From: Antedon bifida
Taxonomy: Eukaryota > Echinodermata > Crinoidea > Comatulida > Antedonidae
DNA: 64,000 bases
NCBI GenBank assembly: GCA_963402885.1
Contig: OY727100.1
Location: forward strand, 21,609,665-21,673,664
Reading direction: 5' to 3'
Shown piece by piece: positions 19,384 through 61,400 of the stretch (position 1 is its first letter; every line of letters begins with the position of its first letter). The notes below the pieces were generated by a model, which saw only the letters and a list, made by a program, of their open reading frames with translations, did no database searches and was not told the DNA's origin. Both the position numbers and the translations under genes were made by a program.

Positions 19384-19887
19384 TTTCTTCGATGTAGGCC
19401 TATTTCCAATAAGACAATCAAGCGAAAATTCTCCAAGTTTATGGCCACAAATGCGTCATTTTACAGGGCTAGCCCGTCTCAAACGGTTACTACATCTGGT
19501 AATCCCAGCCTAGCTGTGTAGTCGTTATTATAACTATTGTTACTGACAACGCCAGTTAATAGATTCTGTTATGGAGGGATTAAAAATCGCTTCTGAACGC
19601 AACGCTCGTCATATACAAGGACGACGCTTATTGGTCAATAAAGCTTTTCATTATCGATGCACTGCTATTATTGATCAAATACTGTTTTATAACAACCAGT
19701 TTATTTACACATTTTGCAATTAATCATAATGTATCACGATGATACCATTATTATTAATGTTTGATTTATATGTTTAGACAACCATTGTGATGACAATACT
19801 TATGTTATGAATAATCCGGGTGACTAGCAGTCAGATTCAGGCGGCCGCCGCCCGTCATAAAACAATCATGAACGTAGTCGGAATTTA

Positions 19888-27440: not shown

Positions 27441-28854
27441 CACTACAGTGTTTTCACTATCAGAGATTGTAGTAGACTTATGTTCCAGGATAAGTGAAAT
27501 TCCGTTCTCTCTTCACGATTAAAATCGATTTAGTACAGTGATGTTCTCTCTTCTGGCACTAGACTGCGATCGGAACAGACTGTATACACTCTCTAAAATG
27601 GCAGTTCCACACGATCCCAAATCTGAACTGTATTCTGCAGGATGGCGATATCTTTCTTGCAAGACGTTAATTCAGACAGTCCAGTGGTCAGTGATGATGA
27701 GTCAGTTAAGAACAGGAAGATATCTAATAATTTAAACACTTAAACTATATTTTAGAATAACTAATATCCATCTTGCAATTGATATTATCAGCTATAGATA
27801 CTCGACCCGAAGCATGAACGCGACAAAGCAGAACTCGATCTTTCTAAAATATATTTTATTCTCGCTCTCGATCGATGCTGTATGTTATCACTGAATCAAG
27901 TAGAATAGTTTGGTAAACTCTATATAGCCTCTATACCCTTACAAATCCATATAGAATGCATTCCCCGGCCAATTGTTTCCAAAGTTATAAGCTACACCTT
28001 TGTTACCGAACTGTAGAAAACTGGCATTGTGTGACGGCGTGTTTTTTTTCTTTTGTAATTCATTTCATCATTAAATAAAATATGCAAAACAAAAAGGGAA
28101 GCGGTTTATAGGAGAATTAAGTGCCAAATTGAAAAAAAAAAGAGAGAGGATTAAAATCGAGGTCTTCAGTTTGTCTAGGATTTATAGTGCGATTCTGGAT
28201 GACACAAGAGCCATAGGCATTTGAAAGTGAAGTGACTAATATGGGATAAGTTAACGCTAAGTTATTAATTGAAATTAATCACAATAATTGTTATTCTATT
28301 AGGTAGACATTTTTTGTTTATTGACAATGTGTTTTTGGGTAGTAACGTTTTTAAAATGTGTAAAATATTACTACAATTTTCAATCGAGGGATCTCTCTGA
28401 GAACTGATCAATAATTATGGATTTTTTGGCATATAATGGTAAACCATTATTATGTAATTCAACTGTTATTTCACATTTTAAGCAAAGATTTAGTTTAAAA
28501 GAAAATAAATTAGTCCAGTACATGTATATTCTTTATTGTAAAATACATTGTATCTATCCAGGCGTTTCATACAATGACGAATATTTAGACGGTAAAAAGT
28601 TTGGTGTCGCTCAATAAAATAAATCACGAAAATCGTATGCCGCCCTCTATATTTGATGTAGTCTGCAAATTAAATAAACAAGTTATATAATAAGAACATT
28701 TTGACGAAGGATCGAGGAGGGTGTATTATCGTAAACTAAAGTTAAAATGAAGTGATTGCATATCATTTGGTGGAGAGGAACGGAGTGGTTTATGGTAAAG
28801 TATGAGAAGGTGTAAAATAGATGAAAATATCTTCAATTTGAGTCGATCGTCAAG

Positions 28855-31800
28855 ATGAATTCTAGGCCCATGTCCGAGACGGTGGTTAAGAAAAGGCGTC
28901 GCCTGCTGCGACGAGCCTCATCGTTACTGGAGCCTACAGTTCGCAATCCGTTCGTTCATCACTTGAATTTGACTACATTAGACAAGATTAGAGTAAGTAT
29001 AAAGACACCAAATTTATTTGATATTAATCATTAATTACTTTGTTATTGATTAATTGAGTTAACAGTACAGTCAATAAAATGTGTGTCCTGTCTGTATTCA
29101 TGTTGAAAAAGTTAAAAGATTGCGATAGATTAGAGATAGTGAAAAGTTTTGTTGGTGAATGAAGGTCAGTGGCCTACTTTCTAATTCTAGGCTAGGTTTT
29201 TTTTTAAGTTAAAAGAAGACCTTTACATGCACTGTAGTATATCAATATACCCATAACATGCGAAAGGTGCCCTCTTTTCCCAACTCGCCCATAAAATACT
29301 ACTGTTAATAATATATTATGTCAATGATATTGCTTCACCATGGATAGGAGGTGGAGTGGGCTGCTTGCCAAACCACACAAATAAAACGTTTATGATTAAT
29401 GATGTCATTTTTTTCTAGTCAGATGATTTCTTTAATTTTTTTTCCTACTCCGGTAGTTACTAATATATTCTTTTTGTATCCAAAACATAAAAAATAAAGA
29501 CAAATAAAATCAAACTTTTGTAACTTTTAACTGCAGTTGAACAAAATTAATGATTTTCACTTGCAAAAAGAGAAAATAAACTGAATAAAATTTAAAGTAG
29601 TATGACTTTTTATTTATGCTACTTTTATTTTCTAATCCAATTTTTGGTTAAAGTTAATAACTATAATTATTTAAAAATTATTTTTTCAAAGAATATAAAA
29701 TATATAAACTTTAATATTGATATTGTATTCGTCGTAAATTTTAATTGAGTGTTATTGTTTCTATTTCAGATTGCTGTAATGTCGGTAACGGTCGTTCCGT
29801 TACGGTTGATATTGGGCCTGGCATTTTTTCCAATAGTGTATCTTCTTTGCAGAATTGCACTAGCAGGCCTTACAGAGGAACAACTTGTTAAAGAACCCTT
29901 GCAAGGCTGGAGGAGGTAAGAACTGGCTTGGCATAGACATCAAACTTCTTTTAAGCTCTATCTACACTTTATCAAACTTTATGTGACAAAACAAATGCGA
30001 TGTGCCCATATACTGTATGGACATGATGATGTCATATCACTACCATATTTGGGCACATCACATATTTTTGTCAAATTAAGTTTGATAGTGTGGACAGAGC
30101 TTTAGCCAATACCACTCCTTCATACATACCTACAGTAAAGCTCTAATGTCTACATTATCAAACTATATGTGACAAAAAAATGTGATGTGCCCATATATGG
30201 ACATGATCATTGATGATGTCATATCACTACCATATTTAGGAATATCACCACTATATTTGGGCACATCGCAATTTTTTTGTCAAACTAGTTTGATAGTGTA
30301 GACAGAGCTTTAGTCAAATTACTAAAGGAATATAATGTGTTTGTATGTTAACGCTCTTGTTATTGGTAAATCAATTTTGCTGAATTTGGATTTTGAAATA
30401 AAATAAAATATTGAATTGTTAAAAAAAATACATTTTGCATTTATTTATCATAATTATAATGAGTAGATAAATTAACTTTGTTTGCATTTTGTTTTTGTTT
30501 TAATCATTTTAATAATGCATTCCCAGATGTACTTGTTTTGTCCATGTCAAAATTATTCTACTGGAGGTAATATTTCATACTCGTTAATTTAATTTTATCT
30601 TCTTTTTTTTTGGTAAAAATCATACACAGTGTATTATATAATGCAATGACTGATGACTCTAACCTTTATATTGCAGTACAAAACGTAATTACTGCAGTAA
30701 CTGTAGTAGAATAATTTTGACTTGGTCCCTAAATGCATGTTCACATTAAGAATAGCAAGCTTGAATTGTGTCATTGTTGCTTCACAATGTTCCCTTAACT
30801 TCAAGAAAAAAAAAGTGAAAATATTGAACATTTATTTACGATTAATGAATCATTAAAACAATTTTTTTTCAACCTCCATTTTTATACTTTGTATAACAAA
30901 TAAAACCTTTTTTTTTAAATAGCACATATACATTCATGATATTAAACTAATATAATGCTACGAAATATAAAATTCTTTAAGAAAAATCTAACTTGAGATT
31001 CCTTAACTTTAAAAATTAAATTTGAATGCAAATTGTTTGCTCTTCTCCCTGCTTTAAATCTAAAATATGGAGCTTTTGATTTTTCATGATCTACGACCTG
31101 TTTCATGATCTACGACCTGTCCTAGAAAGGCAAGGTCAGGTCAATTGATGTGATGTCGGTCATTCCCTGGTCTTTTTTTTATTCTTTTATACTTCAAGCG
31201 CTTTGAGACTATTTTGGTAAAGAGCGCCTCATATTCAGATTATGAATTACTAGAAGCCATCAAGATGGGCACAATGAATTGACATGACCTAGTAGGTCAT
31301 AGGTCATAGTTCGTGAGTCAAAGCTCCTTATAATCCTCCCAATTTTGCATTTTTTTTCTTCCTGCCTTCATTGCAGAATGCTGTTGTATCCCACCTGGCT
31401 TATTGGACGCTTTCAATTTTTTATCATGGGCTTTCACTATGTTTCAGTGAAAGGTCAAAGGGCAAGTCGTGACGAAGCACCTATTTGTGTTATTTCTCCT
31501 CATACCGCTTTTTTTGATATTCTTATCATGTTTGTATTGGGTCTACCTCACACCAACTCTGTGTCGCGCGAGGAGAATGGAAAAGCGCCGTTGGCTGGAA
31601 GTAAGTTATATTTCACAAGGTTGCTTAATCAAATTTTTGTCTTTAATTAATGAGTCCCCTAAATGTCCCCTTGATAGGGTTTTCCACTGGCCATAGTTTT
31701 CCTATTTTGTCTTAAAAGAACAAAGGCCAATATAGTTTTATAACATTATTTGTTGAACCCTTATTCAGGGGACACTTTGTGGGGTCCTGAAAGTGTCCCC

Positions 31801-34800
31801 TTAATAGAGATTATACTGTTTTATACATGAAGTCTAGATACTGTTGATTCACTTTCAAACACAACGATCACATATTTCCTAGTTAGCTCATCGAAAAATG
31901 TATTGTTGCTGTTCGTATAATGTGGCTAAATAAGTAAAACATCTTATTATTTTCACACAGCTTTAGTAAACTTATTACAGCCGGTATTTGTGTCAAGAAA
32001 ACAGTCAAATTCACGGCATAATGCGAGTTACGAAATAAATAGGCGAGTGCAACCCAACAGCCCTTGGCCACAGCTTCTTATGTTTCCAGAAGGGACATGT
32101 ACGAATAAAACATGTCTGATTAATTTTAAACAAGGTAAAAATTGTTTAAAAAAGTTGTTTTATCACTCATATGCTTATTGAAAATACGTTCATTTTCTCA
32201 TCCAGGTCTATCAGTATTGATCCATTTCTCTTTATATTTTATTTAAAAAAAGTTTAATTCAATAAAACAAAGCATTAATACTTATTTGTTCCACAGGAAA
32301 GTTTCCCCTTTATAGGGGACTTCTCCTCCTCCCCCCCCCCCCAGAATAAGGGAGTTCCCAATTGATTCTAAATATACTAGGCCTACAGTATAATTAATTT
32401 AATAATGATATAAACTAATATAAATTAAACTATTATTATACTATAATTCATTTAATAAATGCTATATACTGTATTACAGGAGCATTTAATCCTGGTTTGC
32501 CAGTGCAACCTGTCGTTCTACACTACAACACAGACACTGTGACGTGGGCATACAAGGGACCACAGGTGTAAGTGACATTGTATTCTTTAGCAAAGGTCTC
32601 AAATTGGATAAATACATAATATTGAGAGACTTCATGAAAGCACTCCAAACCATAGGTGATGCTATGATTTCTTTAAATACATCCAAACATTAAGATATTT
32701 GGCATCAGCATGGTAATCAATATTTAATGTCAGGAGCTCATCAAGCATGACATATGTTGTGTGTTTGCCGAAACAGACCTAGTTATAGTAACACCTAAAT
32801 GAATGTATGCACTGAATTGTACCTTTAGCGGGAGATGAGAAATCTATAAAAATATCACGAAACTTGGGAAGTTTACGAAGTTGTTATGAAGGTTCTATGT
32901 TACACTTGCCTTATTTGCATAGCAGGTGCAAGTTGCTCCTTGCCAAGTACTCAAGGGCAACATTTAATATTAACATGTCCTACATTTGATCATGTTTGCC
33001 TTTAGATGTTTACTCTCCCACAAATGCACACTAACTTTATATTTTAAATAAACAGTTGGTCAAATGTTGACCTTAGATCAAATGTTGACCTTAGAGGTCA
33101 ACATCCAATCTTTCAATGAAACAAGTTCAGATCCAATTGATTGTACACATTGTAAGTTATAAAACTAACAGTTGTAAATTCTGTGAGAAATTAATATTTT
33201 TATTATTAGATAAATACATTAGTATACAGTACTGTGTGATATTATTAGTACAGTGTTCAAAGTCCAGTAGATATTCTCTCTCAGAAAACTTTACTTTACG
33301 AAAGTAATCGTGAAAAACATGAAAACTGAAAAACATTTTTTTTTACAGGTTAGCTTCTATGTGGTTGACAATGTGCAATTTTAATAATAAGTTAGAAATA
33401 GAATTCCTTCCAGTTTATAAACCAAACGAGGAGGAGAAGCGAGATCCTGCACTATATGCACAAAATGTACGAGGTGTGATTGCTAGGTATGTTGTGGGAA
33501 TTCCTTTTTTTTCGCATATTATTGACCAATCACATGATGGGGAACTAACCCATGTTATTTATATATCCCAAATATGGTAGTGGTGTTTGCCATGATAAGA
33601 AAAATCTTGGTACTGTGACTAAACCACGATTTGAACCCAAGATTATTATAATTACCATTTTCATTTTGTAGGTCTTTAAATCTTCCGGTTACTGATCATT
33701 CATTTGAAGATTGTCTTCTGATGAAACAAGCCAAAAAACATGGTCTTCCAATGGAGGCAGGAGCTGTAGAGTTTCACAAGTTAACAGAGAAGTTGGGGTA
33801 AGTACTAACACAAAAAATGTTATGTGCCCATATATGGACATGATGATTTCATATCACTACCATATTTGGGCATGTTACTACCATATTTGGTGGTGGTGGA
33901 GTCTCTTTATGTCACTCCTTACCACAAAATATTGCATCTTTCCCCAGACTAATTTTAACATTTCACGCTCAAAAAATCTTTCTATGTGTGTGCAGGGAGG
34001 TATAAACCTCTCTATATAACCTTTAGGCCAGATGGAATCTATAAAGTTCAAACATTACTATTATGCTGTATTAATGATTTATTAATAAGAACTACCTCCA
34101 ATATAAAAGACAACCCTAGGCCCATGGAATGACAATCAACAACAATGATTTAGTTAGTCCTTTCTCAAACCCAGTGTAATGTATATCTACACAAACAAAG
34201 ATGCTCTCCTATTAATAACTACTTTTGTGCCCTAGCAAAACACTACATAGTCATATCTTTGAGTTAATAGACCCAAGTACTACTATTCGGTTCTTTGCAA
34301 ATATTTGCATAAGACAAATATTGACACAAACTCACTTACATAACTTCTGTATTATATAACGTTTATATAAGTTCAATAACATGTGATATGTAATTATTAT
34401 AATCTTTGAATGTTCCTACATTTACACGTTTCTTCTAACTAATAAAGATGATGTATTGTCATTTTTTAAACATTTTGAAAGTGAATGTGACATTAAATTA
34501 CCTTAATTTAAAAAAAATTTCAGAGGACAATATTATCTTTAAAAAATAGTATTCTGATGTATATGAGTTTTTTTTTCACTTTTATGAGTGTTTTGCACAT
34601 GATTATAATTGCACATAGCATTCTTCTCCATGGTTCTGGGTTCTTGTCTCATTCTACTCTTTTTTGTGGAGTGAGAATGATGAGTGCTACAAACAAACAA
34701 TTTATAATTAGACATTCTAGTTGGTCTTTTTTTTTTCTTTCGACAAACATGAATAAATTTTACAAAACTACAAAATGGATTTTATTTTTCTTGTTTTGGG

Positions 34801-36114
34801 GGAAAATACATCCTTAAATTCAATATGAAATAAATTATTTTGTTTTTCATGGAAAATAATAATAATAAATAATAATGCCAAAGAACCTTGATATTGAATA
34901 TAGGTCACGTTTTGTATTTATTTTTCATTTTTTTGGCAATGTTCCAGCAATTTGGTTTCACATGAATATGATTCATTGTGTGTATATAATGAAGATGTAT
35001 TATATAAGCCACAGCCATTCCCTCTAGAATTTAACAATGGTTGTATTCAGTAAACGGAATTCACTATCTGTTGTTGATCTGTGGTTAAATATATCATATT
35101 GCACTCCCAACTTTGTTTGTTCTCACTTACATAACATGATACTAAGAATTTAATTTATTAAGGTTGTTTTTTGAATAGTTTTCAAAAATATTGTATTTTT
35201 GTAAAGATTTTGCGTGAATTAATTTAACACAATCGCTTATAGAAATTGCAGTTGTGAAAAGTATAGAAATTCAATATGTTTTGGTTTTATATATTTCTAC
35301 ATTGTGATGATCTTTGTATTTTAAAATATCCTTTTGTGGCTTTTTATGCAAAATAGTTCATGTCAAAGTCTATACTTACTACATTTTATGCAAATTAGTT
35401 CATTTCAAAATCAATAATTAACTACATTTATGCAAAAATTACTTCATGTTCAGATTCTGTAAATAACATATTTTATGCAAATTTTAACCATTTTTTGAAT
35501 GACGACCACCCATTGATATAAACAGTTTGTTTGCGAGCACAAATTTAACAGAAATAGGCTCGATAAAAATATTTTTTAGTATATTTTGAAACAAGTTTTG
35601 CCACTCTGCAGCAGAAAGAATAGCCGTATTCACTATTCACATATATGGTATGGAAAACACCCTTAAATTAAAATTAAAAAATCTCCATAAGTGAATACAA
35701 TTTAAGTGAAATATTTATTGAGTTAAGTGAAATGCTTAAGTGTGGTTGGTGGATACTGCCACAGGACCTTAAAGGTTCACTGGCTCTTATGCAACCTAGA
35801 TATCTTTGTTTACAGTATTTTAATAATTTATGATAATGCTATTTGTTATCTATTGACAATGTGTATTGGTAGTCAGTACTTATGATGAGTGTTTTCACAT
35901 GTGTGTTATATAAATTCACTTACATAACATAATATTTTATAAGCTCGTCATTGTGTTAGTTGCTGGCGTGCCTAAGTAAAGGTCACCATATGTCTTTTAC
36001 ACAGGTCAAAGTAACAAATAATTATTGCTGAGAAATTAAATACATGCTCATGATAAAGTGTTATTAATCAACAAATGAACATACATGCAGGGTATTAAAT
36101 TATAATGTTGGGTG

Positions 36115-36174
<60 letters not shown>

Positions 36175-39074
36175 GAAGTTTGATTGCTTGTTAATAGCTT
36201 GCAGCAGATATTAACTCTTCAAATGCTGTTTTATTCCAATTGGTAAAAGCCCATTTATATTAAATATTAAACGATAATGAACAACAATAATAGATAATTA
36301 TACATTTTTCATATACAGAAAAATAAATAAATTTGAAAAAAAAAATTGGTTATACTTATAGCCCATAGTATAAACATGGTATGAACAAGCCTTAAGGCCT
36401 TGATTATGGGTTTTATAAAAAATGATCTTATTTTTTGACAGATTGAAGTTTACTGACATTAAAGAGCAACTTCCCAAATATGCTGCGATTGCCAACTCAA
36501 AGGGTTACATAAGCATTGAGGATTTTGCAGAATATCTCAAACTACCAGTATCGCCAGCTTTAGAGGAGGTCTTTGCAATGTATGATAGGGTATGTTCTAT
36601 TAAGTATTATAACATTTTAAAAACAGTGGAGCATTTTCATGGCAGTTTTAAACTCTGTCTACACTATCAAACTAGTTTGACAAAAAAAGTGTGATGTGCC
36701 CAAATATGATAGTGGTATGACATCATCATGTCCATACATGGGCACATCACATTTTTTTGTCACATAAAGTTTGATAGTGTAGACAGCTTTACACATATAA
36801 TTTGTTGTAGTGACAATGACTTTCTGGGTCTTGCATGTGAACTATGACCTGAGATGTGTGACCCAAGTTTGAGGCATGGTTTTGTATCTGAGTAATCCAT
36901 TATACAATATCCTTATATAGGAATTGTAGGACCATACCTGCGTATATATATTTGAGTGAATAAAAAATTTCTTTCCGTCACAGAAAGTGGATAAAAATAA
37001 ACATTAATGCATCTGCACTAGTTAATTAATTTGATTAAATTATCCTAAATAAAAAACAAGTTTTCCACAAGCTAATGGCAATACAGTAAAAGTAATACAA
37101 AATGAACATTCCAACCTTCTACCAAATTCCCTTTGTGACTCGGCATTTTTGGCTTAAATCTTATATCATTGTATCTTCTCAGCCTCCTAATCCTAATAAT
37201 CTCTCTTTATCCATTCATTGTACTTTATATACTGACGTACTTGAGGTTTTTAAAGCACATAGACAATGAAGATGCCACCAGCTTGCATTAATTTGTTTGT
37301 ACTATTTATTTTTAACAGAATGGTTCAGGGACAATAGATTTCAGGGAATATGTTATTGGAAGTTGTTTGGTAGCAAAACCAGCAGAGGATGAGGAGACCC
37401 TTGCGTTGGCATTTGAAGTAAGCTCACATTGACTCACACAAATGCTCTCTCACATTAAAATTTAATGTCAAGAATTGTTTAAAATTGTGATGTACAGTAC
37501 TGTACACTACTAGTGCTACTAAATAGCATTAAATGGTGGAAAGTGTCTGTCGCAACACACAAGGCATAAATGAGTATAATGATTACTTGAGAAAGTCGTA
37601 TATATATTATATATTTTATTTCAGCATTGCATAATGAAAATACATACAATACAAAAGAAAACAAAAGCATCATCAGCAAAATTCAAAAACTTAAAACACA
37701 ATGCTCTCAGTATCATCAACTGTGTAGAGTAAATCCAAAGGCAAAGTACTGAAAAAATGACAATGCTGTGGGTATCAGTGATCAGATACAAAATGAAATA
37801 AGCAAAAAGCTAAATCAAAACGATAAAGTAAAACAGCCATAAGAATTAGCATATATTATATATATACATATTTTCAAATATGGGTTCTTTTAAACCATAT
37901 TATGTATGAATTAAAATGACACTTTTCACACATCAGATCCAGTCGAAGAATTACCGGTTTCTATTTTTGTTTAAACCAATTTGTTGTTATGCAAATTGAC
38001 GTCAAGAATACTGACTGTATAAGCTCACCCCATACACTCTGCCCCAAATCATCTAGTCCATCCCCAAGTTTTTTTTTCAAACCTTTTAGGTGAGCCCCAT
38101 CTGAGCTGGTCCAAAGTGACTAGTTTTCTGCTAATGATACAACAATCAAGTTTTTACTTTTTATTTCTAATAATTATATTTTTATTCTGTTAGCGTTTTT
38201 GTGGTAATAGTTACATAACTAAAGAGGAACTAGTAGAGATTATGGAAAAGTTGTTGAGAATGACAGATGAACAGGCTGAGGAGTTATTCAATCAAGTTGA
38301 TGTAGACAAAACTGGTCAAATTACATATGGTAAGCAGAAATGTACCTTCATTAGCTTAAAATTCGCCTAGAAAACTAGCAATGTGCTAGTAGAGTTTTCA
38401 TAATTGCTAGTTGAAAATTTGATAAATACAACTAATTTTCATGATAAAGGAATTCGTACAATTTTAAAAAGAGTAAGGGATTATATCAACACACCCATGG
38501 CAGACATGTACCATACCTATGAAAGTCAGCACACTTTGTAGATGATCCCCTATTCTTAAATTCTTTATCATGCAATTATATGTACACAGAACCAACAGCT
38601 TTATGTCCCATCCGAAATACGAAGCAATAAGATTAAGAGTAACCTGCCTTAAGCTTGGTTTCCACTAGACGCAACGCAAGAGCGTAAGCCACAACGCAAG
38701 TGAATTAACCAATCACAAGCAGCAGTTGGATTAACCATCGCTTGTGATTGGTAATTCCCTTTTGTTATGGCTTACGTCCTTGCATGGCATCCTAGTGGGA
38801 ACCAAGCTCAGATACAAACACTGACACAGACAGGTATCGAGCCCATGCATCTCGCATACTAATTTGATTACCGTACCATTACGCCATATCAATCTCTTAA
38901 AATCATCAATATTTTCTGTTTTTTTATATTTTTTCAGACCAATTTAAGGCATATGCTGACTTGAAACCAGAATATGCTACTCTCTTTAATATGTACCAAG
39001 AACTTAAGAAAGAGAACAAAAAACAAACGGAACAAGAACCAAATGTTGATAGAAATAAAAACAAGACGGACTAG
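28855..39074 (+). CDS. LPCAT2: Lysophosphatidylcholine acyltransferase, copy A (LPCAT1/2 type)
   Basis: Membrane acyltransferase that re-acylates lysophosphatidylcholine (and, in LPCAT1/2, lyso-PAF) in the ER or lipid droplets. Eleven exons: 28855-28992, 29770-29915, 31377-31600, 31961-32134, 32480-32567, 33349-33486, 33672-33797, 36442-36589, 37319-37417, 38194-38329, 38938-39074; 517 residues, phases all consistent. Hydrophobic anchor about 47-80; catalytic HTAFFD (H137-D142); FPEGT 211-215 followed by CTNKTCLINF; EF hand with a canonical loop 393-404 (DRNGSGTIDFRE), a degenerate one, and a third (463-474) lacking the final Glu. The C-terminus KNKTD fits a KxKxx ER-retrieval signal. SREENGKAPLAG resembles LPCAT2 more than LPCAT1, but the split needs a tree. 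Start chosen at the first ATG in frame before a conserved NPFVHHLNLT. Confidence 0.93.
29954..30102. mobile_element. FB1 element in LPCAT-A intron 2
   Basis: AAGCTCTATCTACAC to GATAGTGTGGACAGAGCTT, TA on both flanks, one internal module. Confidence 0.9.
30138..30310. mobile_element. FB1 element in LPCAT-A intron 2
   Basis: AAGCTCTAATGTCTACATTATC to GATAGTGTAGACAGAGCTT, TA flanks, two internal modules (one decayed). Only about 35 bp from the previous copy, in the same orientation. Confidence 0.9.
31069..31328. mobile_element. FB8 inverted-repeat element with nuclear-receptor-like motifs
   Basis: Starts GGAGCTTTTGATTTTTCATG and ends TCGTGAGTCAAAGCTCC, with ACGACCTG / TAGGTCATAGGTCA next to the ends. 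A solo end of the same family lies at 50396-50437. The right end contains AGGTCA-T-AGGTCA, a perfect DR1, at 31294-31306. It lies directly upstream of LPCAT-A exon 3. Confidence 0.6.
31294..31306 (+). promoter_or_regulatory. DR1 nuclear-receptor-type motif (candidate)
   Basis: AGGTCA T AGGTCA, preceded by TGACCT at 31285. DR1 is the binding format of PPAR/RXR, HNF4 and COUP-TF in other animals. It is part of repeat FB8, so it may have no role. Confidence 0.35.
31640..31812. repeat. GGGGACAC inverted-repeat motif
   Basis: In LPCAT-A intron 3: CTTATTCAGGGGACACTTTG facing GAAAGTGTCCCCTTAATAG at 31750-31807, and a further TGTCCCCTTGATAGGG block at the left end. Confidence 0.6.
33818..33890. mobile_element. 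FB1 fragment
   Basis: ATGTGCCCATATATGGACAT, then two TACCATATTTGG modules; both termini missing. Starts about 20 bp after the LPCAT-A exon 7 donor. Confidence 0.65.
34440..34817. mobile_element. FB5 element in LPCAT-A intron 7
   Basis: GATGATGTATTGTCATTTTT at the left and TGGGGGAAAATACATCCTTAA at the right, diverged forms of the FB5 ends. Confidence 0.6.
36113..36174 (+). repeat. TATC microsatellite
   Basis: About fifteen TATC units in LPCAT-A intron 7. Confidence 0.95.
36651..36789. mobile_element. FB1 element in LPCAT-A intron 8
   Basis: AACTCTGTCTACACTATC to GATAGTGTAGACAGCTT; starts 61 bp after the exon 8 donor; one internal module. Confidence 0.9.
38597..38890 (-). mobile_element. SINE2 copy interrupted by FB2
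   Basis: On the minus strand the head reads as a tRNA: A box TGGCGTAATGGTA and B box GGGCTCGATACC. The body at 38597-38649 shares TTTATGTCCCATCCGAAATA with the fragment at 18831. An FB2 copy (38650-38809) splits head from body, so the SINE insertion predates it. In LPCAT-A intron 10. Confidence 0.7.
38650..38809. mobile_element. FB2 element nested in SINE2
   Basis: TTAAGCTTGGTTTCCACTAG to CTAGTGGGAACCAAGCTC, inner arms TTAACCAATCACAAGCAG and TCGCTTGTGATTGGTAAT. Confidence 0.9.
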
Positions 39075-43709: not shown

Positions 43710-46700
43710 CTATTCAGTCTTATCCTTGCTATTGTTTACATTTGAATCCGTCTTCGTTGTTTCCGAGTTGGTTAGTTCTTGGTAAATATTGAAAAGAGAA
43801 GCGTACTCCGGTTTCTCATCTGCATACGCTTTAAATTGGTCTAAAAGACAAATATATTTTGATGAAAGTTATGTAATACAAATAAATAGATTATTTTTGT
43901 TTTAATTGAATGTATGGAAAACAATTTTATGGAACCAAAGTTTATATATTTTTTTTTTCTATTGTGAGACAAGTTTTACTACCTCTAATTTTAATCATTG
44001 TAAATTGCTTTGTAATATTTGGACTATTTTGAAATAAATGTTAAACAATACAATTTAATATGCGTTGTGATAGCTCCCCCTGACTACCCCAATTTTAGCT
44101 TATTTGCCCAATTGTCATCTACTTGATTTTCTTTATGCTGGGTGACCTATCTGTTCTCCCGTATCCTCTTACCATAGGTAATTTGACCCGTTTTGTTCAC
44201 GTCGATTTGGTTAAATAATTCCTCCGCTCCTTCATCTTTCATTGTGAATGCATTTTTCAGGATCTGTACCAACTCGTCTTTGGTTATGTAACCTTTCTCA
44301 CCCCCAAACAGCTGTTAAAAATAAAATGACAATAATAGTATGTTGTTTTTCCTAATCAGTATCTCATCACCGATAGATCACAAACAACTCCTATTAAGGG
44401 GACACCTTTGGGACCAAACAAATTGTCCCCTTACAAGGGGTGTCCCTTGAGTATAAGGTCTTCACACCTGTTCTAGCATGGTTCCGGTCCTGTGCAGGCA
44501 AATCAAATCAAATGTTTTGATGTCATGACGCTACACGAGGCTATGCACCACAATCTATATGCGCGTAGCCGCGTAAAAACAAACATTTACGTTCAATTTG
44601 ATTTGCCAGTGCTACTGTAACTAGCATTGACATTCAGTGAGCTGTTTTGTGTGCTCACACCAATTGTAACAGGTTATGCATTTACCTTAAATGCCATTGT
44701 GATCGTTTCTTCTGTCTTTGCAGGTTTAGCTACCAAACAACATCCAATTACATATTCTCGGAAATCTATTTTGCCTGAACCATCCTTTAAAAATAACAAA
44801 AAACCCCAAAAATCTTTAATTTTACATGTGTTCTTGTGTTGGCTCTCAATTGTAGACTAAGAAATCATTTGAAATTATTATTAAAATTAAACTTTATTTT
44901 CAGAACATACCCTATCATACATTGCAAAGACCTCCTCTAAAGCTGGTGATACTGGTAGTTTGAGATATTCTGCAAAATCCTCAATGCTTATGTAACCCTT
45001 TGAGTTGGCAATCGCAGCATATTTGGGAAGTTGCTCTTTAATGTCAGACAATTTCAACCTAGCAATAAGTTGGAAAAAAAGAAAGCCCTTAGACTTTAAT
45101 ACTTGTTCATGAATGTTATTAAAAATATACAAAAAATTTAAAATGAAGGACCTAAATGACACCAGAACACAACTGTACTCATTTACTAAAGGGCTCTGTC
45201 TTTTTGTGCCGGTCCAAACTTACCCTAATTTTACAATTATCTTTTGAAATTCAACAATTCCCGCTTCCTTTGGCAGTCCCAATTTGCTTGCCTCCATCAT
45301 AAGGCGACAATCTTCAAATGTATGATCCGTTACCGGGAGATCTAACGCTCTAAAGACAATATTTAATATTAAGCGATTTAATGAGAGCGGGATTGCATGC
45401 TTAGTTTTGTTAAAATCAGAAAGTAAATGACCTTTGAACTTACTTTGCGATAACACCGCGCACGTTGCGAGCAAATAGTTTTGCATCTTTTTTCTCTTCC
45501 TCATTCGGTTTGTAGACTGGTAGAAATTCCACTTCAACTTCATTATTAAAATTACAAAATGTCAGCCATACACAAGTTAAGCTAAACAATATTCAAAATA
45601 AATAATAAATAACATTTAAATTTTTTTCAAATATTTAAAAAATCTTTAATTGTCACATTACAAACATAGCTCTGTACATGCGAGACAAAAATTGAAATTG
45701 TTAAAAATATTTTGGCATCTTTGGCCCTTCATAGACTTTTTAGGTTTGCTGCCCTCAATAGGTTTGATCTGACCATCTGTGGTGACCAGGTGTTGTTTAT
45801 GTAAATTAGATAGGAATTCTTTCTTGTCATGTACAATACAGTATACTCTGCTTGGAGGAACAATGTTTTTTTAAAGCACACATATTATGTTGCATGTTAG
45901 GCATATATTAGAGTCAGGTAAACACTTACAAGTATTTAATGCCAGGAATCATAATCAATGCATTAAAGATGGGGTAAGTTGTATCTTTATCATATGTAGC
46001 ATTTCTTAGCATTTATACTTAGTTAGGCCTTAATGTATAGCAGTCAATTCTCTCGATATCAGACTCTCTGAAAACCAGAAACGCTCCCAGAATTTTGTTT
46101 AATTTCTTTTTACAATTAAAAATAAATTTGAAATACTTATTAAATTTCTAAATATTTGCATTGTATATGTACTGATGATATTGCGACTGTTCTCCCAGAA
46201 TGAATCATGCTGACAATGTATTAAGTGTGTGTGATTTTAAACTGAAAATGCTTTTTTACCATCATACTCATTTTTTAAAAGTGATCAAAAACAAAACAGT
46301 ACTTTAGAAAATTGTAACAATTCTGATCAGCTTTATGGTCAATTGAAGACAAACAATGTTTACATAACATTAAAACAAGTTTCAATTTTCATGTCACTAA
46401 TGTACCATTTATTGTAATTCATTAACATATTCATACAGCAATATAATATTTATAATAGAAACGGTGTTTTTACAGACAATTTTTAAAGCTCTATCTACAC
46501 TAAACTTTATGTGACAAAAAAATGTGATGTGCCCATATATGGACATCATGACATCATATCACTACCATTTTTGGGCATATCACACTTTGTTTGTCAAACT
46601 AGTTTGATAGTGTAGACAGAGCTTTAAATTAGACTTACACATTTGGTCCTTTCCATGTCCAAACGACGGTGTCTGGTTTGGTTTTATACCGTAGAGCAAC

Positions 46701-49700
46701 AGGTTGCACTGGTAGACCAGGATAAAACGCTCCTATAAAAAATAATAATTACAATTATTTATATCATAAGACAATCAAATTACATTGAAATGTCAACACT
46801 CAAAAACCCCAATACAGTAGTAATAATAATAGTAATAATAATTAATAGTAATAATACTTTAATTAAGACACCCCTATTAAGGGACCCCTTTTGGTATCCA
46901 AAAAGGTGTCCCCTTAATAGAGGTTCTTATAAACACATACCAGGCTTAAAAGATATTAAGCAGCTTCTGTTTGCACACGTTCCTTCGGGGAATATCAAAA
47001 TCTGCGGCCATTTGCTGCCTGGTTGACTCCGCTTTATGATTTCACGAACCGTGCTCTGACGCGAGTTGGGATCAGTCCGTGATACAGACACAGGTTGTAG
47101 AACACGCACTAAAGCTAAACGACGCAAACAAATTGTGAAGTTAATATTAATTTCAAATAATAATTTGCATGTTAATTGTATGATTTACTTGATTTTTAAT
47201 TTAATTTTTAGCAAATGTTTTCTAATACTAGGTTATGCTACCCGCTTATCCAATTCCTATTCTTATGTCACCAGCATTAAGGCCTAGAAGCATGGTTATT
47301 TTGTCCAAGCACAGAATTAATCGAAAAACTGGGTCAATCAGAATTTTTTTAGCTGATCTTGTTTTTTTTTTAATGCATGCAATTTCAACTAAAAGAATTC
47401 TATGACGAAAACAATTGAAAACAAAAGAATTTCAGCAAAACACTATTATCAAAATATTATATTAATTAATTACTATTTTGATTAAACTTTAAATTGCTTT
47501 AATTCCAAGCAAAAATATACAGTACAATAAATGAAAAAATATAAACAATAAATTACAATATTATAATGAATGAAAACATGAAAAATGCAGAAAACTATGC
47601 AAAGGATAGCACATAAAAAATTGAAATTACTACACAAACACATATGGATTGTTGTCGCACAAAATAGCTAAACAAATAACAAGTTCAAATACAAGAAATT
47701 CAATAAAAGAATTCAATATTAAAATACTACAAGGTAGAAAGGATATAAGATTGATCTACGGCAGACAAATGAAAAAAACAAATAAAAAAACGACACAATC
47801 ACTAAGCTGAAGCATACGGCATGTGGCGCCGATGTATGATTATAATAATTATCAACTAGAAATGCGTGTACAGTATGATGACAGATAAGAAAGAAACCTG
47901 ATATGAAATAACTACTGTATGATATCTAATACTAATAGTACAAAATGAATTTTAATATTTGCACTTGTATTTTTATGGCAAACCTTCTTTTGAACAACAA
48001 TAATTTGTTGGTATAATAAAATAATTCCTTAGTAATAAGCGTAATAATGGCGATAGTAAAATAAGCGATTGTAAATGGGTGATCTTAAATGTGTATAAAA
48101 CTACTGCAATGAATAATATTGCATACACATATGCCTAAGGCATATTACGTTAAATGTATCGATTAAACCCTGTATGTTTAACAATGTGGAATTAATCTTG
48201 AAAATAAAAATATTTTCAGATATTTTGTTATGAATCCATTCAATGGGTATCTGGTGGAAAAATTTAATAAAATATTGAAAAATACTTTATAACCCTGTTT
48301 TATTGATGGCCTATGATGATGTCATTTATACAAAATGAAGAAGATCAGAAATTGAGGATGGTTAGATAATAATAAGTAAATGACAAATGTTCAAACATGC
48401 CAACATATATGAAGCAGATTTATTGCAAAAAAAACACCCATATAATTCAATTATCTTTGTAGCCTGGAAAATGTGAAGGATTATAGTAGGGAGACAAGTT
48501 AACAATATGGGTGTCTCTCAGAAGCGCTTGCATGTATGCAACATTATAGTGTTAATTGGTGGAGGTATAACTAAGACTGTAGTAAGTAGTAGTAATACTT
48601 GGGAAGTATGTCAAAGGTCAATACTGGAAGTAGTTAAAGAAGTAACAGGTATAACAAATTAGTAATCCAATGCTACTGTAGTAGCCTACAGTAGTATTTT
48701 AGTAGAATAGCAGAAGTAGTAGAGTATAGCATTAGAGCTAAGAGAGTCAAGCACCAATAGTTTAGTATATTAGTATAGTAGCAAAAAATAGATAAAATAA
48801 AACAAAACCAGACAGTAGATCTATTTAAACATAAAATACCTACTTCCAAGCAAGGGCGCATTCTGATTCTCTTCTCGGGACACGCAGCTAGAAGACGTTA
48901 GTCCCAACACGAAAACAATCATAATATCAAAAAAGGATGTGTGAGGTGAAATAACGCAAATAGGAGCTTCTTCACCACTTGCCCTTTGACCTTTGACCGT
49001 TACATAGTGAAAACCCATGATAAAGAACTGAAAGCGTCCGATCCAACAGAGGGGGTGCAGCAACATTCTAGAATGGAGGTAGGAAACAGGCAATATAAGA
49101 GAAGGATTTTGCATGATTTGTTAGTTACCGTTTGTGGTACATATTGAAATATTACTTTCTGATACAACTCCAACATCATATGATGATGTTTGTATTAGAA
49201 ATAAAGATTTCAGTATAACTTTTTTGAAGCAGTGGAAGTGGAAAGGAAAGTGGGGTGGGGCAGGAGTATGAAAGTTAGAATTGGTATATTGAATTTAGTA
49301 AATTTTTCCTTCTTTAATAAAGAAAATTATACCCAGAACTTAACTTCAATCAAAAATGTATTGTATGTACTGTATTTCATACTCATTATGGTTGAAAATC
49401 TGTACAGTAATGTATATATGTATATGTAATAATAATATTAATACGTGGGCTTATAAATTAAATATTTTGATGTTATAATACATGGGCTTATATCCTGATG
49501 TATTATTAAATAAATAATTAATCTGTAGCGCGTAATAAATGCCACATTCATAATATTTGACGGTAGCTCATTGACATTGAAATTAACAAAGGCATTTTCT
49601 TCATAGCTGGTTGTAACAATAACAAACATGGTTTTTAATCTCTGCAAGTGAATAGAATATCAACTAAACCCCTGCTATGCTGCAAACAAGTTTCTATTTA

Positions 49701-52700
49701 TACTTTACAGCAGTAAATTGCTTTTCTAAACTGAAAAGTATACAGTATATAATAATTTTCACCAAGGACATACTATCCCAGATACGATTATGTGAGATTA
49801 CTTGCTAAAATTTGCAAGTAATTCTCAAATGAGATTCGAATGTACAACATACAGATCACTACCGTGGTGTTTATACCTCTAAAAATCTAACCAACTAACT
49901 TGACACATAAAGTAAAGTTATTTTAAAGTAATGAAATCAATTGCAGAATCCCATAGGTTCATTAGTGTCCTATAGACAATTGTTGGCGTGTATTGTACCT
50001 ATAAATATTGTATTGAAATCTTACTTAGCACATGTGTAGAGTTTGGAAAATGTTATGCACATTTAAAATTTACCTGCCTGTACATAACATACAGAACCAA
50101 GTATTACAAACAAAATGTGACTAAGTTAATTTGTCGTAAACCAATTTTATTAGCATTTCAGCAGCCCTAGCATTGTGACATTACGCTAAGCATCTATATG
50201 ATTATTAATTTTAAATTATAAAGTAATGCTCTATAAAAAATGAATTATACATTCATATGCATGCTATGCTCAGACAAAACATAAAATATATAGATAGAGC
50301 TTTTATTTTGTGGACCAGGTCCTATATAAGCATTAATGAAAACAATCTTTAAAATAGATTTTGTATTCAATTGACATTATTAATATCAATATAGGGAGCT
50401 TGTGATTTGTGACGTGACGACCTATGACCTATAGTAGCAACTGGTTATAAAGTAATGTTAATTCATTTTGCATTCTGGGATATTGGGAAATGCTTTCTCA
50501 CTCAATCCATTGACACAGTTTTGATTCAAAAGCTTGGTTTCAACTAGGACGCAACGCAAGCGATGGTTTAGTCCAACTCGCTTGTGATTGGTGAATTCGC
50601 TTGCATTATTGCGGCATACGTCCTTGTGTTGCATCTTAGTGGGAACCAAGCTTTAGTGGTCTAAGCAAACACCTTCGGTATATGGGTAGGTCCTAGGTCG
50701 AACCAAAGTAATCTAACAGCAGGAGTGACACTGAGCTTTGCCAAGATAGGAACTAGTAACAGTCCTTTGATCTTATGTCTGGCTGCAATACCAAAAGTAC
50801 TTTTACAGTATTCTCCGCGGTGCGTAGTCACTGTTAAGGGGTGTGGAACTGATCATTTTACAGCCACAAATAAACCCTTTGATCTCTGGAGCTCAGCATC
50901 CTGTTGTCAGATTGCCTTGGTCAAACTCCCAAATAATGATCAACATATGCGCATTATCTTTGAATTTTGACAAGTTCAAATATGAATTCTTGATTGTAGA
51001 AGAAGAATTTTAAAAATAGGTGCTGGTGAACACAAAAGTGAAAGCTCCATTTAGATAATGCAAGTTGTTTTATATTTTGAAATTGCATGCAAAGTAAGAA
51101 TCAAACTAAAATCTGACATACTCCTTAAAACCGGTATTGATTGGAATTCGTGTTTGGAAACCACGCTAATGTCGAAGTACATGCCAAACAAAATGGCGTC
51201 AACAAACGATGAGTGAGGCCCAACAACAAGTAGTGGGGCTTCGTGAACTGACAACTTCTGACCTTTGACCTTTACCCAATGATAGCCGCTGGCTAGAAAA
51301 GCACCACGATATAAATATTTTGCGAAATTTAAAAGAGACCTGGAAAGTAAAAGGTATTGTAGCATTGTTATAGTAATTATTATATTGAGAAAAATCCATG
51401 TCGCCAAGAAAATTGAACTATGTTCTTAGGGGTCAGGCCATTGTAAACCTATAATCATCAATTCCATAGCCAGGGGTTTGAGGGTTCTAACCTAGAAAAA
51501 ACCGAGAAAAAACCCTACATGTAAAAATATGAGTAATTGATGAAATTTTGTTTAAATTTGTTTGTTTATTTTATATTTGAAAGGAGTGTAGATCTGAAAG
51601 TCGTCGTGGCTATTAACTCCATCGGAGCCCAAACGATTTATTCCACCAGTACTCATAGATTAAGTACTAGTGTACAATTAAACTAATTTGATTATTAAAT
51701 AATGACCTTATTTAGCACCTATCCCATGATGCTGAATATGGCATGTAAGTATCCCACTGAGATTAGTATGTGTGCTGAGTTTTAAGGTTTTTTTCTTCAT
51801 TGTAATTTTTAAATAATTTTCCCCTTCTAACTGAATTAAAGCTTTTCCTGTGTGTATTGTATTATGTTATCATCCCAATAAAATGTATTCGATAAATTTT
51901 ATATATAAACTTTACCTTCTCCACCCTTTTAGAGGTTCACTTTCTAGTTGCTGTTGTGTAAGGCCTGCTATTGCAATGTTGGCAAGTAAACAATCCATGA
52001 GTATTAATGCTAAAACCAGTAACAGACGGATAGGAGCCACCGTTACCGACATTAAGGCAATCTAAAGTATATAAGAGATAGAAGATACAATGTTTATTTG
52101 TCTTATTCTAAAATATAGTTTCCATATAATTTTACCTTATGCGTCACTGATTTTATGATTTTTCGACAGGAATGGAAAGTTTACCATTTATTGATTTAAC
52201 TTTACCGAATTAAACTGACATAACGAATCATTAAACACTAGCCAATCATATACAGGTTTTATTCCATTTGTTACAGGAATATCCATATGTTGTCAGTGTG
52301 GTGTACATCATCATTTATTGCGCGCTGCTTGACCTGTGTCGGGGAAATCTAAAAGTGCTAAAAAATATTGCCCATTGCAGATGTAGTGTACTGTATGGTG
52401 ATATAAAAAGTAGCTTTATATATCTTTATATTAATATATTATATTATTTCTTGTTGTGTTTTCTCTCTCTGGTTGGTGGTTTTATTTTTGTTTTCAATGC
52501 TACTGGATAGGAAAGAAAGTGCCCTTCAATCAAATCAAGTTCAATTCTTGTCACAGTTGTCTGTTAATTAGTGGACATTTGAATCAGTCAATTGATTGTG
52601 AACAACATGCAACTAGAAAGTATCAACATAATACCACCAGAGCCTGGCTAGGCCGCACCTTTACCATACTTACTCTAATTTTATCGGTTGTAGTTAAATT

Positions 52701-52790
52701 CAGTTCGTGGACAAACGGATTGCGGATCTCCGGGTGGATTAGCGACTCGGCTCTTTTCAGCCTATCTTTCCTGCTCGACGCAGAACTCAT
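43710..52790 (-). CDS. LPCAT2: Lysophosphatidylcholine acyltransferase, copy B, with alternative catalytic exons
   Basis: Second EF-hand LPCAT, tail-to-tail with copy A. Exons in gene order: 52790-52674, 52061-51916, then either 3a (51339-51122) or 3b (49067-48844), 47114-46941, 46732-46639, 45581-45444, 45349-45224, 45058-44911, 44784-44686, 44311-44173, 43840-43710. With 3b the protein has 511 residues, with 3a 509. Exon lengths match copy A almost throughout (146, 224, 174, 138, 126, 148, 99), so the pair arose by duplication of a complete gene. HTSFFD (H130-D135) in 3b or HSSFVD in 3a; FPEGT with CANRSCLISF; canonical EF loop DRDGSGKIDFRE; a later loop has Asn at position 3 and Gln at 12. 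C-terminus KDKTE fits KxKxx ER retrieval. ATG chosen as the only one before NPFVHELNLT. Most exons are strongly diverged from A, but exon 8 is nearly identical. Confidence 0.92.
44389..44453. repeat. GGGGACAC inverted-repeat motif
   Basis: CTCCTATTAAGGGGACACC facing CAAGGGGTGTCCC, in an LPCAT-B intron. Confidence 0.55.
46486..46624. mobile_element. FB1 element in LPCAT-B intron
   Basis: AAGCTCTATCTACACTAAAC to GATAGTGTAGACAGAGCTT; TA flanks (also readable as TTTAAA). It ends 15 bp from the low edge of LPCAT-B exon 5, just inside the intron beyond its donor. Confidence 0.9.
46866..46926. repeat. GGGGACAC inverted-repeat motif
   Basis: CACCCCTATTAAGGGACCCC facing GGTGTCCCCTTAATAGAGG with a nine-base loop, next to the LPCAT-B exon 4 donor. 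Confidence 0.65.
48844..49067 (-). CDS. LPCAT2: LPCAT-B exon 3b (LPCAT2-like catalytic exon)
   Basis: 224 bp, the same length as exon 3 of copy A. Acceptor CCATTCTAG, donor GTAGGT. Encodes RFQFFIMGFHYVTVKGQRAS, the HTSFFD catalytic motif and SREENQNAPLLG, close to copy A. It enters in phase 2 and leaves in phase 1, exactly as 3a does. Confidence 0.9.
50396..50437. repeat. FB8 solo end with DR1-like motif
   Basis: GGGAGCTTGTGATTTGTGAC and CGACCTATGACCT. Read on the minus strand, AGGTCA-T-AGGTCG at 50430-50418 is one base off a DR1. In the LPCAT-B intron between exons 3a and 3b. Confidence 0.45.
50530..50653. mobile_element. FB2 element in LPCAT-B intron
   Basis: AAGCTTGGTTTCAACTAGG to CTTAGTGGGAACCAAGCTT; the left CCAAT arm is lost, the right (GTGATTGGTGAATTC) remains. 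Confidence 0.85.
50710..50914 (-). mobile_element. FB4 repeat copy, reversed
   Basis: AATCTAACAGCAGGAGTGAC to CTGTTGTCAGATTG; reverse complement of the copy at 18491-18707 with scattered differences. In the LPCAT-B intron between exons 3a and 3b. Confidence 0.85.
51122..51339 (-). CDS. LPCAT2: LPCAT-B exon 3a (alternative catalytic exon)
   Basis: 218 bp, acceptor TACTTTCCAG, donor GTATGT. Encodes a second version of the same segment: LASGYHWVKVKGQKLS, catalytic HSSFVD and VSKHEFQSIPVLR. The HWV-VKG and HSS features recall LPCAT1. Phase in and out equals exon 3b, so either can be spliced between exons 2 and 4, but using both would shift the frame (218+224 is not a multiple of 3). Copy A has no counterpart in its intron 2 that I can see. 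Confidence 0.85.
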
Positions 52791-57738
<4,948 letters not shown>

Positions 57739-58498: not shown

Positions 58499-61400
58499 AT
58501 GAAGCGTAAGGTACTGCTAACATTATCTGATGACAAAATAAGCATTTTATTTAGATTTGCTACATATTTTATTTGGAAATGTGGTTGTTTATTAACCATT
58601 ATATTGCTGTCAAAAGTCGTAGGCTAACCAGCTCACATCCCCTCTCACGTACCCACACCACCACCAGGCGTGTGAGTCCACCTTCATCATCAGGCTAGCT
58701 GACTAGGCCTAGGCTATAACTAGCTTATTTCTGCTTGGTATGGTCTAGAAGGATATATATATAGGCCTAGGCCTCCTAGCTTGTAATAAGTCTAGCCTAG
58801 GCTAGTAGGGCTACGCCAGCTAGGTAATTTTAAATGTTTAAATTGGGAAAGTAGGCAGCCTACATAATATCTATCTATCTATATAATTTTGTTTTGTTTG
58901 GCAGAGATCTGATTGCATTACCAAGTTAAGCAGTAAACAGAATTGTTTGTCCGCCAATGACAGTTGGGATCATTGTCAAGATGGTTTTGATCCGGACATC
59001 ATTCTTGAAGGTCAAAGGTCTTCTGCTAGGAAATCAATTGGCAGTAAAAAGGGTTTAAAAAGTGGGTGTTTGATTGATATTAGGGAGGTTTCGCAACCTT
59101 ACGAATACGATAACGAAAACGGATACGTCACACATTCTGAAACTTTTGAGCTGATCCCCATTTCATATCCGTAAAGCGTATTCGTGTTTGACGAATATCA
59201 CCAGTCATATTCGTAACTACAAAACGAGTATAGTTTTTGATCTATTTTGCACATTTTGCATTTGAATCAGGAATGATTCATGATTATAATATAATTATAG
59301 ATTTATTGAAGGTAATTTACTAAAGTAGTTTACTAAAATGCCTGGTCAATTTTGATAAATAGCAGTTTTTAAAGTCCCCACTCGCTTTGATGTTACGCTA
59401 GGCCTAGGCAGCTAAGCACTAAGCAACACGTACCTGCGCTTCGCTCAATTTACCGCAGTCATATTTTGGACGGCGCCCTGAATATTTCGTTGCCATGCGA
59501 AACAGATTTTTACTGGCTTACGAAAACGAATACGTGTGCGTGACGTATCCGTTTTCGTTATCGTATTCGTAAGATTGCGAAACCTCTCTATTATGTTTAC
59601 TTAAATAATTTTAAAGTTCTCTTTGTTTTTTATTTCATGTTTCTAAACAAAACTATCTTTAAAACTTTAGGTAAATTACTTTCTACTGCAAAAGTAGGGA
59701 GCCAACAAGATGATGTCGATATAAGTTGGAGCTCAAGTGAAGATGACAGTGACTCAGCAGATGCACACCCTCTAGTGTTTGAATCACCTGATGCGAGTCC
59801 TAAACGTCAGAAGACGTCGTTTAGAAGCATAAGTCATGATGAGATATCCAGTGAAGATCAACAAACTAAACAAGTTATGGTCGAAGTTCAAAGTTCACAA
59901 GCATCTCAGGTACTTGTAATATTGTCCCCACTTTATTCCTTGACCCAGTTTTTGTGTATTGTAAAGCTCTGTCTACACTATCAAACTTTATGTGATGTGC
60001 CCATATATGGACATGATGATGTCATATCACTACCATAATTGGGCATATCACTACCATATATTTGTGCATATCACTACCATATTTATATGCTTATATAACT
60101 TTTATTTTATTATTGTGCATCTATATGTTCCATTGATTGTGGCTCACATTATTTTGTTTACTGTTTAGGCTTCAGAGCTTTTAATATCGGATTATGAATC
60201 TACCGAGGAATCGGTTGACAGCGAAGAAGTTGAGGAATTTAAACAAAGCAGCGACACACCACAGGTACAGTATGTATATAAAACTTAATAAAATGATTTT
60301 ATAAAAACTGGTTATTGGCAGGTTAGGCATGGTTCCCACTAGGACGCAATGTAAGGGTGTAAGACGCAAGCAAGTTGACCAATAAAATGTGACAGTTCCG
60401 ATGATCCATTGTGTCGTGATTGGTAAAATTACTTATTTTGTGTCCTAATGTGAATCAAGCTTAATACAGCATGTTTTATAACAACTGTTCTTTCACATAG
60501 GCATCCGAAACATACAGCATCGGATCCATATCGTCCTCCTTGCCTTCAAGTTCATTGACCTCTAGTGGAGACATTAAAACGGCAACCTCAAAGAAAGGGT
60601 CAAACCTTATCAACTTAATGAAGCAACAAATAAAATCACCTCAGACAGAGACCGACGAAAATGAACCACTGGATTCGGCCAAAAAGAAAAGTAAATATCT
60701 AAGGTGAGAAACAAAAAATAAATTTGAACTGATTGGAAATTGTTGGGTTTAGTCTGAACAGGCCTCTATTTTAAAGAGTAGAAGACTGACGGATATAGTA
60801 GTAACTTGTTGCTTTTGTTCCATTAGAGGTGGTCTTGCTGAAAGGTTACAGAAGTTAATTTCTAGAGAGAGGTCCTCAGTAGCCATGTGGAATCACCATG
60901 CTGCAGACAAAGCCAAGGCCAGCGGCACTGCTCTGACTGTTCGTGTACAAAAGATACACATTAGCCGGGGAATATACGTCAGTGAATGCATAGATACAAG
61001 TGACATTGAACACAAAGTCCTACATGTGTTATTCTCAACCTCAACTGCTAGGCAATTATGCATAGCTGAAGGGTCCATCGTCACTATATATCCACCATGG
61101 TAAGATAACAGGGGGGATATTCAAGTGGGACTTGTAAGGGGATCATTAATTAGGTATAAAATGAAATATGTATCAATATTTAATATCCAATCTGTAGACA
61201 GTACTGTTTCAAACTTATTAGATCTCGTTAGTGAAATTACATTTATGATTAAAGATGTATTGTCCCTTTGTCAAATTCCAAAAAAAAAAAAAAAAAAGAT
61301 TTCGAAAAAAAGTGGGTCATTTTGAAGTATCAAAATAGTTATTAACTTTCACCAAAAATTAGTAGAAAAAAAAATCATTTAACTGAAATACAGACGTTTT

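Follow-up and report, generated by a model that had tools for sequence, protein, structure and literature searches.

Can one lysophospholipid acyltransferase gene make two enzymes by exchanging the exon that carries its catalytic motif and, if so, how old are the alternatives? The question is raised by a stretch of 64,000 nucleotides (nt) from the crinoid Antedon bifida (assembly GCA_963402885.1, contig OY727100.1, positions 21,609,665 to 21,673,664 of the forward strand), referred to here as the window. It holds two genes arranged tail to tail, LPCAT-B on the minus strand (52790-43710) and gene A on the plus strand (28855-39074). To judge from its sequence, LPCAT-B is a lysophospholipid acyltransferase of the LPCAT1/2 type, from the AGPAT family and with EF hands, and its enzyme activity is predicted. 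An earlier reading of the DNA (the original prediction) gave it two mutually exclusive versions of exon 3, 3a and 3b. We consider it probable that these are an old pair of mutually exclusive exons, kept in several invertebrate lineages and shared out in vertebrates, one going to LPCAT1 and the other to LPCAT2.

Two versions of exon 3 in LPCAT-B

Exon 3a (51122-51339, minus strand, 218 nt) is of the a-type, resembling LPCAT1, and encodes HSSFVD; its acceptor reads ...tttactttccag and its donor gtatgtca. Exon 3b (48844-49067, minus strand, 224 nt) is of the b-type, resembling LPCAT2, and encodes HTSFFD, with acceptor ...cctccattctag and donor gtaggtat. Both have GT-AG splice sites, are entered in phase 2 and left in phase 1, and each joins exons 2 and 4 in frame, giving full models of 509 (3a) and 511 (3b) residues with no internal stop in either. 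A spliced model with both versions, or with neither, runs into an early stop, and from their frame and position such mRNAs would be expected to be removed by nonsense-mediated decay. The coordinates, phases, splice sites and HX4D motifs of the original prediction thus all hold in the spliced models, as does its claim that either exon connects exons 2 and 4 while the two together break the frame.

The strong divergence claimed for the two peptides was measured at 39-42% identity. A tblastn search of the window with 3a matched 3b at E 3e-11, and the two are therefore homologous rather than alike by chance. Against its own genome (315.6 Mb, 27 contigs) the 3a peptide gave three matches at E <= 0.001, namely 3a itself, 3b of LPCAT-B and the b-type exon 3 of gene A. 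The acyltransferase domain PF01553 is recognized in the 3a form at 64.2 bits and in the 3b form at 54.7 bits (cut-off 23), and the C-terminal EF hands score 62-63 bits with PF00036 and 58 bits with PF13499. Motif 1 (HX4D) lies in exon 3a or 3b and motif 3, PEGT(C), downstream in the spliced models; a PlsC-like fold is present in a-type and b-type forms alike. In a sequence search of the PDB, the best 60 of 270 matches were EF-hand proteins or fusions with them.

LPCAT-B has twelve exons because exon 3 occurs twice. In the spliced model, and always on the minus strand, exon 1 with the ATG (52674-52790) ends in phase 0 with donor gtaagtat, and exon 2 (51916-52061), equal to gene A exon 2 in length and phase, ends in phase 2 (acceptor ...ctttag, donor gtaaagtt). 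Exon 4 (46941-47114), which contains the PEGT motif, is spliced to 3a or to 3b. It is followed by exons 5 (46639-46732), 6 (45444-45581), 7 (45224-45349) and 8 (44911-45058), by exons 9 (44686-44784) and 10 (44173-44311), where the domain scan places the EF-hand region, and by the final exon with the stop (43710-43840). The exon pattern and the intron phases (0,2,1,1,2,2,2,0,0,1) are common to genes A and B.

The public protein P0001 of Antedon mediterranea, annotated as 'lysophosphatidylcholine acyltransferase 2-like isoform X2', is a 3a form. It differs from the LPCAT-B 3a form at 12 of 509 residues overall and at 2 of 72 within 3a, so that exon 3a evolves at about the rate of the whole protein; the 'X2' of its name implies that another isoform exists. 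This bears on the view that 3a is a relic or an annotation artefact never spliced into mRNA. Gene A manages without 3a and the Antedon 3a form is represented by one public computed protein, but 3a has an open frame, GT-AG splice sites and an intact HX4D, keeps 70 of 72 residues, and is present in an A. mediterranea isoform. We find this view scarcely credible. Mutually exclusive use, as originally proposed, is consistent with the frames, the splice sites and the identity of isoform X2.

Exon pairs in other animals

Comparable pairs occur in other animals, in four phyla altogether, and many isoforms that seem to come from a single gene differ almost exclusively in the exon-3 segment. The 3b form, used as query, found 995 relatives that passed the cut-off, 120 of which were listed; with the three window proteins these make 123 rows. 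Fifty-one pairs of rows are at least 95% identical outside the exon-3 segment. Inside it they fall into two sets, 23 pairs with 27-44% identity and 28 with 94-100%, and none between. Of the 23 divergent pairs, those of deuterostomes belong to Antedon (two, formed with window rows), Asterias, Patiria, Ptychodera (where the segment has three versions) and Saccoglossus. Those of other phyla are from Lingula, Mytilus (five, across species; the pair P0066/P0073 involves two Mytilus species), Mizuhopecten, Ruditapes, Mya, Dreissena, Saccostrea, Gigantopelta, Haliotis and Pomacea, and one further pair is carried by contigs of 3460 and 1575 bases, which would fit spliced transcripts.

For the 16 of 23 pairs covered by a check of the first and last difference within residues 85-166, the differences start at residue 88 or 89 and stop at 160-163 (Antedon coordinates). 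The Antedon introns flanking 3b interrupt codons 88 and 163, and exon borders and phases therefore appear, as far as proteins can indicate, to be shared by several phyla. Beyond positions 89-162 each pair shows 0-5 differences, Pomacea being the exception with 36, mostly C-terminal.

Two public records deserve mention here. P0046 of Mytilus coruscus is an over-inclusive gene model in which an a segment is fused directly to a b segment, which suggests that the order in this mussel is a then b, as in Antedon. Acorn worms have up to three versions of exon 3 (P0006, P0012 and P0016 in Ptychodera flava; P0015 and P0021 in Saccoglossus); the set may have been enlarged in this group, the extra versions fitting a and b poorly.

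Age of the alternatives and the vertebrate genes

Trees of the segment were built from 65 of the 123 aligned rows and then from 72 of 236 sequences, hand-picked for phyla and isoform pairs. The larger set included 6 of 113 new LPCAT1-type rows from a bait search, whose named proteins were nearly all LPCAT1, the bait having favoured LPCAT1. In these trees the segment groups by type and not by species. Lingula X2 and the a forms of molluscs join Antedon 3a in clade a, while clade b unites Antedon 3b and the exon of gene A with Lingula X1 and the b forms of molluscs. Identity within types exceeds identity across types in 72 of 78 comparisons among 13 pairs.

Profiles were trained on mollusc rows (14 of type a, 12 of type b) and their scores are given in bits, positive for a and negative for b. 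They separate the Lingula pair (+23 and -28) and assign all six LPCAT1 rows to a (+21 to +24) and all five LPCAT2 rows to b (-14 to -24). Antedon 3a and 3b obtain +6.5 and -18.4 with the mollusc profiles, and +9.9 and -17.5 with profiles trained without ambulacrarians. Trees and profiles therefore agree with the earlier suggestion that 3a is nearer LPCAT1 and 3b nearer LPCAT2, with a modest margin for 3a. The a and b labels come from the trees and were used in training the profiles, in comparing identities and in counting Lys and Arg (below), so that these tests are partly dependent on one another.

The LPCAT1 exon falls inside a (clade support 96/77; 6 of 6 rows) and the LPCAT2 exon inside b (97/82; 5 of 5 rows). 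Every one of the 113 new bait-search rows has the Lys of the a-type, and all five LPCAT2 rows have Arg at the site of Arg166. A tree of the rest of the protein, with the exon removed (54 rows; 18 second isoforms omitted), is broadly the animal tree and joins LPCAT1 and LPCAT2 in one clade (100/95) beside amphioxus (96/97). The exon tree thus parts two genes that the rest-of-protein tree unites, with p 0.116 for a single vertebrate exon clade. The simplest history would be that one gene with both exons was duplicated in early vertebrates and that each copy retained a different exon. Vertebrate LPCAT1 (LPLAT8) has the same domains as the Antedon 3a form and an a-type segment like it, but is a separate gene for which no b-type segment was seen among the rows examined. 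LPCAT2 (LPLAT9, lyso-PAF acetyltransferase, PAF being platelet-activating factor) shares with Antedon 3b the b-type segment and the Arg at the Arg166 position, but is likewise a separate gene, with the b-type segment alone in the rows examined.

The competing explanation is that exon 3 was duplicated separately in several lineages, that the pair seen in crinoids arose within crinoids or within echinoderms, and that the likeness of 3a to LPCAT1 comes from shared constraint. We tested a joint constraint of one clade for each of nine groups with the approximately unbiased (AU) test on 71 rows; lgn93 was omitted, lgn86, lgn90 and lgn95 were counted as arthropods following the rest-of-protein tree, and the model was LG+F+G4, the other trees having used a mixture model. 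The constraint was rejected, with a log-likelihood 121 worse and AU p 0.0005, and a single mollusc clade for exon 3 was rejected alone (p 0.0028). Mollusc-trained profiles sort the two Lingula versions, and likewise the vertebrate rows, with margins of 14-28 bits, and border codons match across pairs; both findings also speak against separate duplications. In their favour, a study of mutually exclusive exons (PMC9741552) describes a considerable degree of convergence between vertebrates and invertebrates in how such exons arose, crinoid-only and echinoderm-only clades are not rejected, and the extra starfish and hemichordate versions fit a and b poorly. We regard separate duplications as improbable.

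The following points nevertheless weigh against an old common pair. Support for the a/b split is moderate (90/75, and 93/64 once vertebrates are included). The position of 3a shifts inside clade a, with hemichordate forms in one tree and with nemerteans in the tree including vertebrates, and its a-type margin is the modest one given above. A crinoid-only clade is not rejected by itself (p 0.083 and 0.13), nor is an echinoderm (p 0.115) or a vertebrate clade (0.116), and chordates are borderline (0.052). With about 73 columns, and with groups picked after a first tree, tests of one lineage by itself have little power, and of those tried only the mollusc test gave a rejection. Asterias X2 and Patiria X2 fit neither type well (-4.0 and -5.6 bits with the mollusc profiles, +1.1 and +2.6 with those trained without ambulacrarians), and the extra hemichordate versions are poorly placed by the profiles. 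All six amphioxus rows listed are b-type and no chordate among them has both exons; isoforms more than 90% identical were possibly hidden by clustering, and these b-only rows would neither aid nor exclude the history proposed for the vertebrate genes. Among the 120 of 995 relatives listed, Antedon gene B is represented by its 3a form and the 3b isoform of A. mediterranea is absent, other genera having both forms as annotated isoforms. Finally, most isoform records are computed annotations, and comparisons beyond the window use proteins alone.

Taking the evidence for an old pair together with these points, the a/b duplication would predate the molluscan radiation and, most likely, also the parting of protostomes and deuterostomes. 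The alternatives would have been retained in echinoderms, hemichordates, a brachiopod and molluscs, and in vertebrates the a exon would have stayed with LPCAT1 and the b exon with LPCAT2.

What the exchange may change

Splicing of LPCAT-B would select 3a or 3b. Each version supplies most of the membrane-side helix, the first PlsC strands and motif 1, and extends past the motif to the residue corresponding to Arg166 of LPCAT2, which is Lys in a and Arg in b. The remaining enzyme, including PEGT and the EF hands, is common to both forms. In LPCAT2, Arg166 is a modelled contact of the lyso-PAF phosphate (PMC8753187). The a and b forms may differ in substrate choice.

An alternative compatible with an old exon pair is that 3a and 3b are true alternatives whose choice alters membrane or lipid-droplet targeting, or stability, and not substrate choice. 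The helix at model residues 85-104 follows the N-terminal helices and lies for the most part within exon 3, and the 46 a/b differences inside Antedon positions 89-162 are scattered across the exon. Both observations favour such a role, but the exon also carries motif 1 and the Lys/Arg position of the modelled phosphate contact (PMC8753187, in part). We think a role in targeting or stability rather unlikely.

A broader proposal, which goes with an effect on substrate choice, is put forward tentatively. The ancestral bilaterian LPCAT may have made two enzymes by exchanging an active-site exon, for which vertebrates substituted LPCAT1 (surfactant, membrane phosphatidylcholine) and LPCAT2 (PAF). 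The exon with the Lys/Arg change might then carry much of the difference in substrate use, and LPCAT-B might toggle between LPCAT1-like and LPCAT2-like activity by splicing. LPCAT1 and LPCAT2 have been studied as separate enzymes, in lung surfactant, retina, cancer and PAF-driven inflammation (parts of PMC8753187). If their active-site exons do come from the alternatives of one gene, the difference between them would be a natural exon-swap experiment. The invertebrate isoforms would then serve as chimeras already made by nature, and exchange of a single exon could show what determines the choice of acyl-CoA and lyso-PAF.

How the choice might be made

Two mechanisms of exclusion were ruled out: steric exclusion through a short intron, the 3a-3b intron measuring 2054 nt, and U2/U12 incompatibility, since none of the three introns concerned has a U12-type 5' site. 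Regulatory pairing of RNA around 3b is a lead only. A candidate arm of 15 nt (51077-51091, minus strand), which starts past the first 30 nt of the intron after 3a and contains TGCATG, is perfectly complementary to a candidate partner in the 3b-4 intron (47388-47374, minus strand), and the pair encloses 3b. A stem of this length was reached in 5 of 200 shuffles by two-base blocks for that intron pair; three intron pairs were tried in all. With 44 occurrences in the window against 36.5 expected, TGCATG, an RBFOX site, shows no clear excess.

Known parallels

Alternative exons shared over great evolutionary distances have been described before, and the LPCAT case adds to that class. PMC9741552 reports 21 human homologous mutually exclusive exon events with an orthologous event in invertebrates; 'LPCAT' is absent from the main text of that paper. 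Those cross-phylum events resemble the present one in having homologous exons in one gene, equal phases, a length not divisible by three and deep conservation, but the vertebrate LPCAT genes seem to have lost the splicing and to hold the versions in two genes. Closer parallels are CACNA1F/CACNA1S and the relatives of FYN, where paralogs after gene duplication each retain one of two alternative exons, and different ones (PMC9741552, section 12). The outcome of one exon per paralog is the same as for LPCAT1/LPCAT2, but CACNA1C, CACNA1D and FYN still splice both, whereas LPCAT splicing is seen outside vertebrates only. No report of alternative LPCAT exons was found among the titles and abstract openings listed in searches of open-access literature. 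If our explanation is correct, a metabolic enzyme, swapped at its catalytic motif, would join the exon alternatives that are common to phyla and later parted among vertebrate genes.

Gene A and other features of the window

Gene A has a single exon 3 (31377-31600, plus strand), of the b-type, with the motif HTAFFD and a peptide 76% identical to 3b of LPCAT-B. Six-frame profile searches of the gene A stretch gave no relic or second copy of exon 3, which upholds the earlier statement that this copy has the 3b type only. Its other exons, all on the plus strand, are at 28855-28992, 29770-29915, 31961-32134, 32480-32567, 33349-33486, 33672-33797, 36442-36589, 37319-37417, 38194-38329 and 38938-39074. 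Of two public gene A isoforms of A. mediterranea, P0003 and P0004, one skips 42 residues near residue 304, outside exon 3; the skip has the length of exon 7 (126 nt). The DNA of exon 8 is 97% identical between gene A (36440-36598) and LPCAT-B (45060-44902), other paired exon pieces being 76-88% identical, and the corresponding A. mediterranea gene A residues differ (AKSK..LQL vs ANSK..LKL). This combination therefore points to recent gene conversion from B to A in the window species.

A short interspersed element that reaches about 170 bp and has inverted ends (TCTGTCTACACTATCAAAC...) looks like a miniature inverted-repeat transposable element. About 13 full or partial copies occur in the window, several in LPCAT introns (at 6405, 14735, 19886, 29950, 30136, 33808, 36647, 42775, 46484, 54986, 56530, 59990 and 62211). 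A strong array of tandem repeats, some 1.1 kb long, lies at 26356-27433; approximately 27150-27470 is open on both strands, with NLNRLNREEDS-like repeats on one. A piece of a potassium-channel gene (12385-13380, minus strand) has Ion_trans_2 in two stretches and a repetitive KKRNSD stretch and reads as the two-pore type, and a second putative piece was recognized by eye at 18994-19455. Beyond LPCAT-B, on the plus strand, are pieces of a Dus (dihydrouridine synthase-like) gene (55633-55908) and of a gene for a DUF4502 protein (60753-61103).

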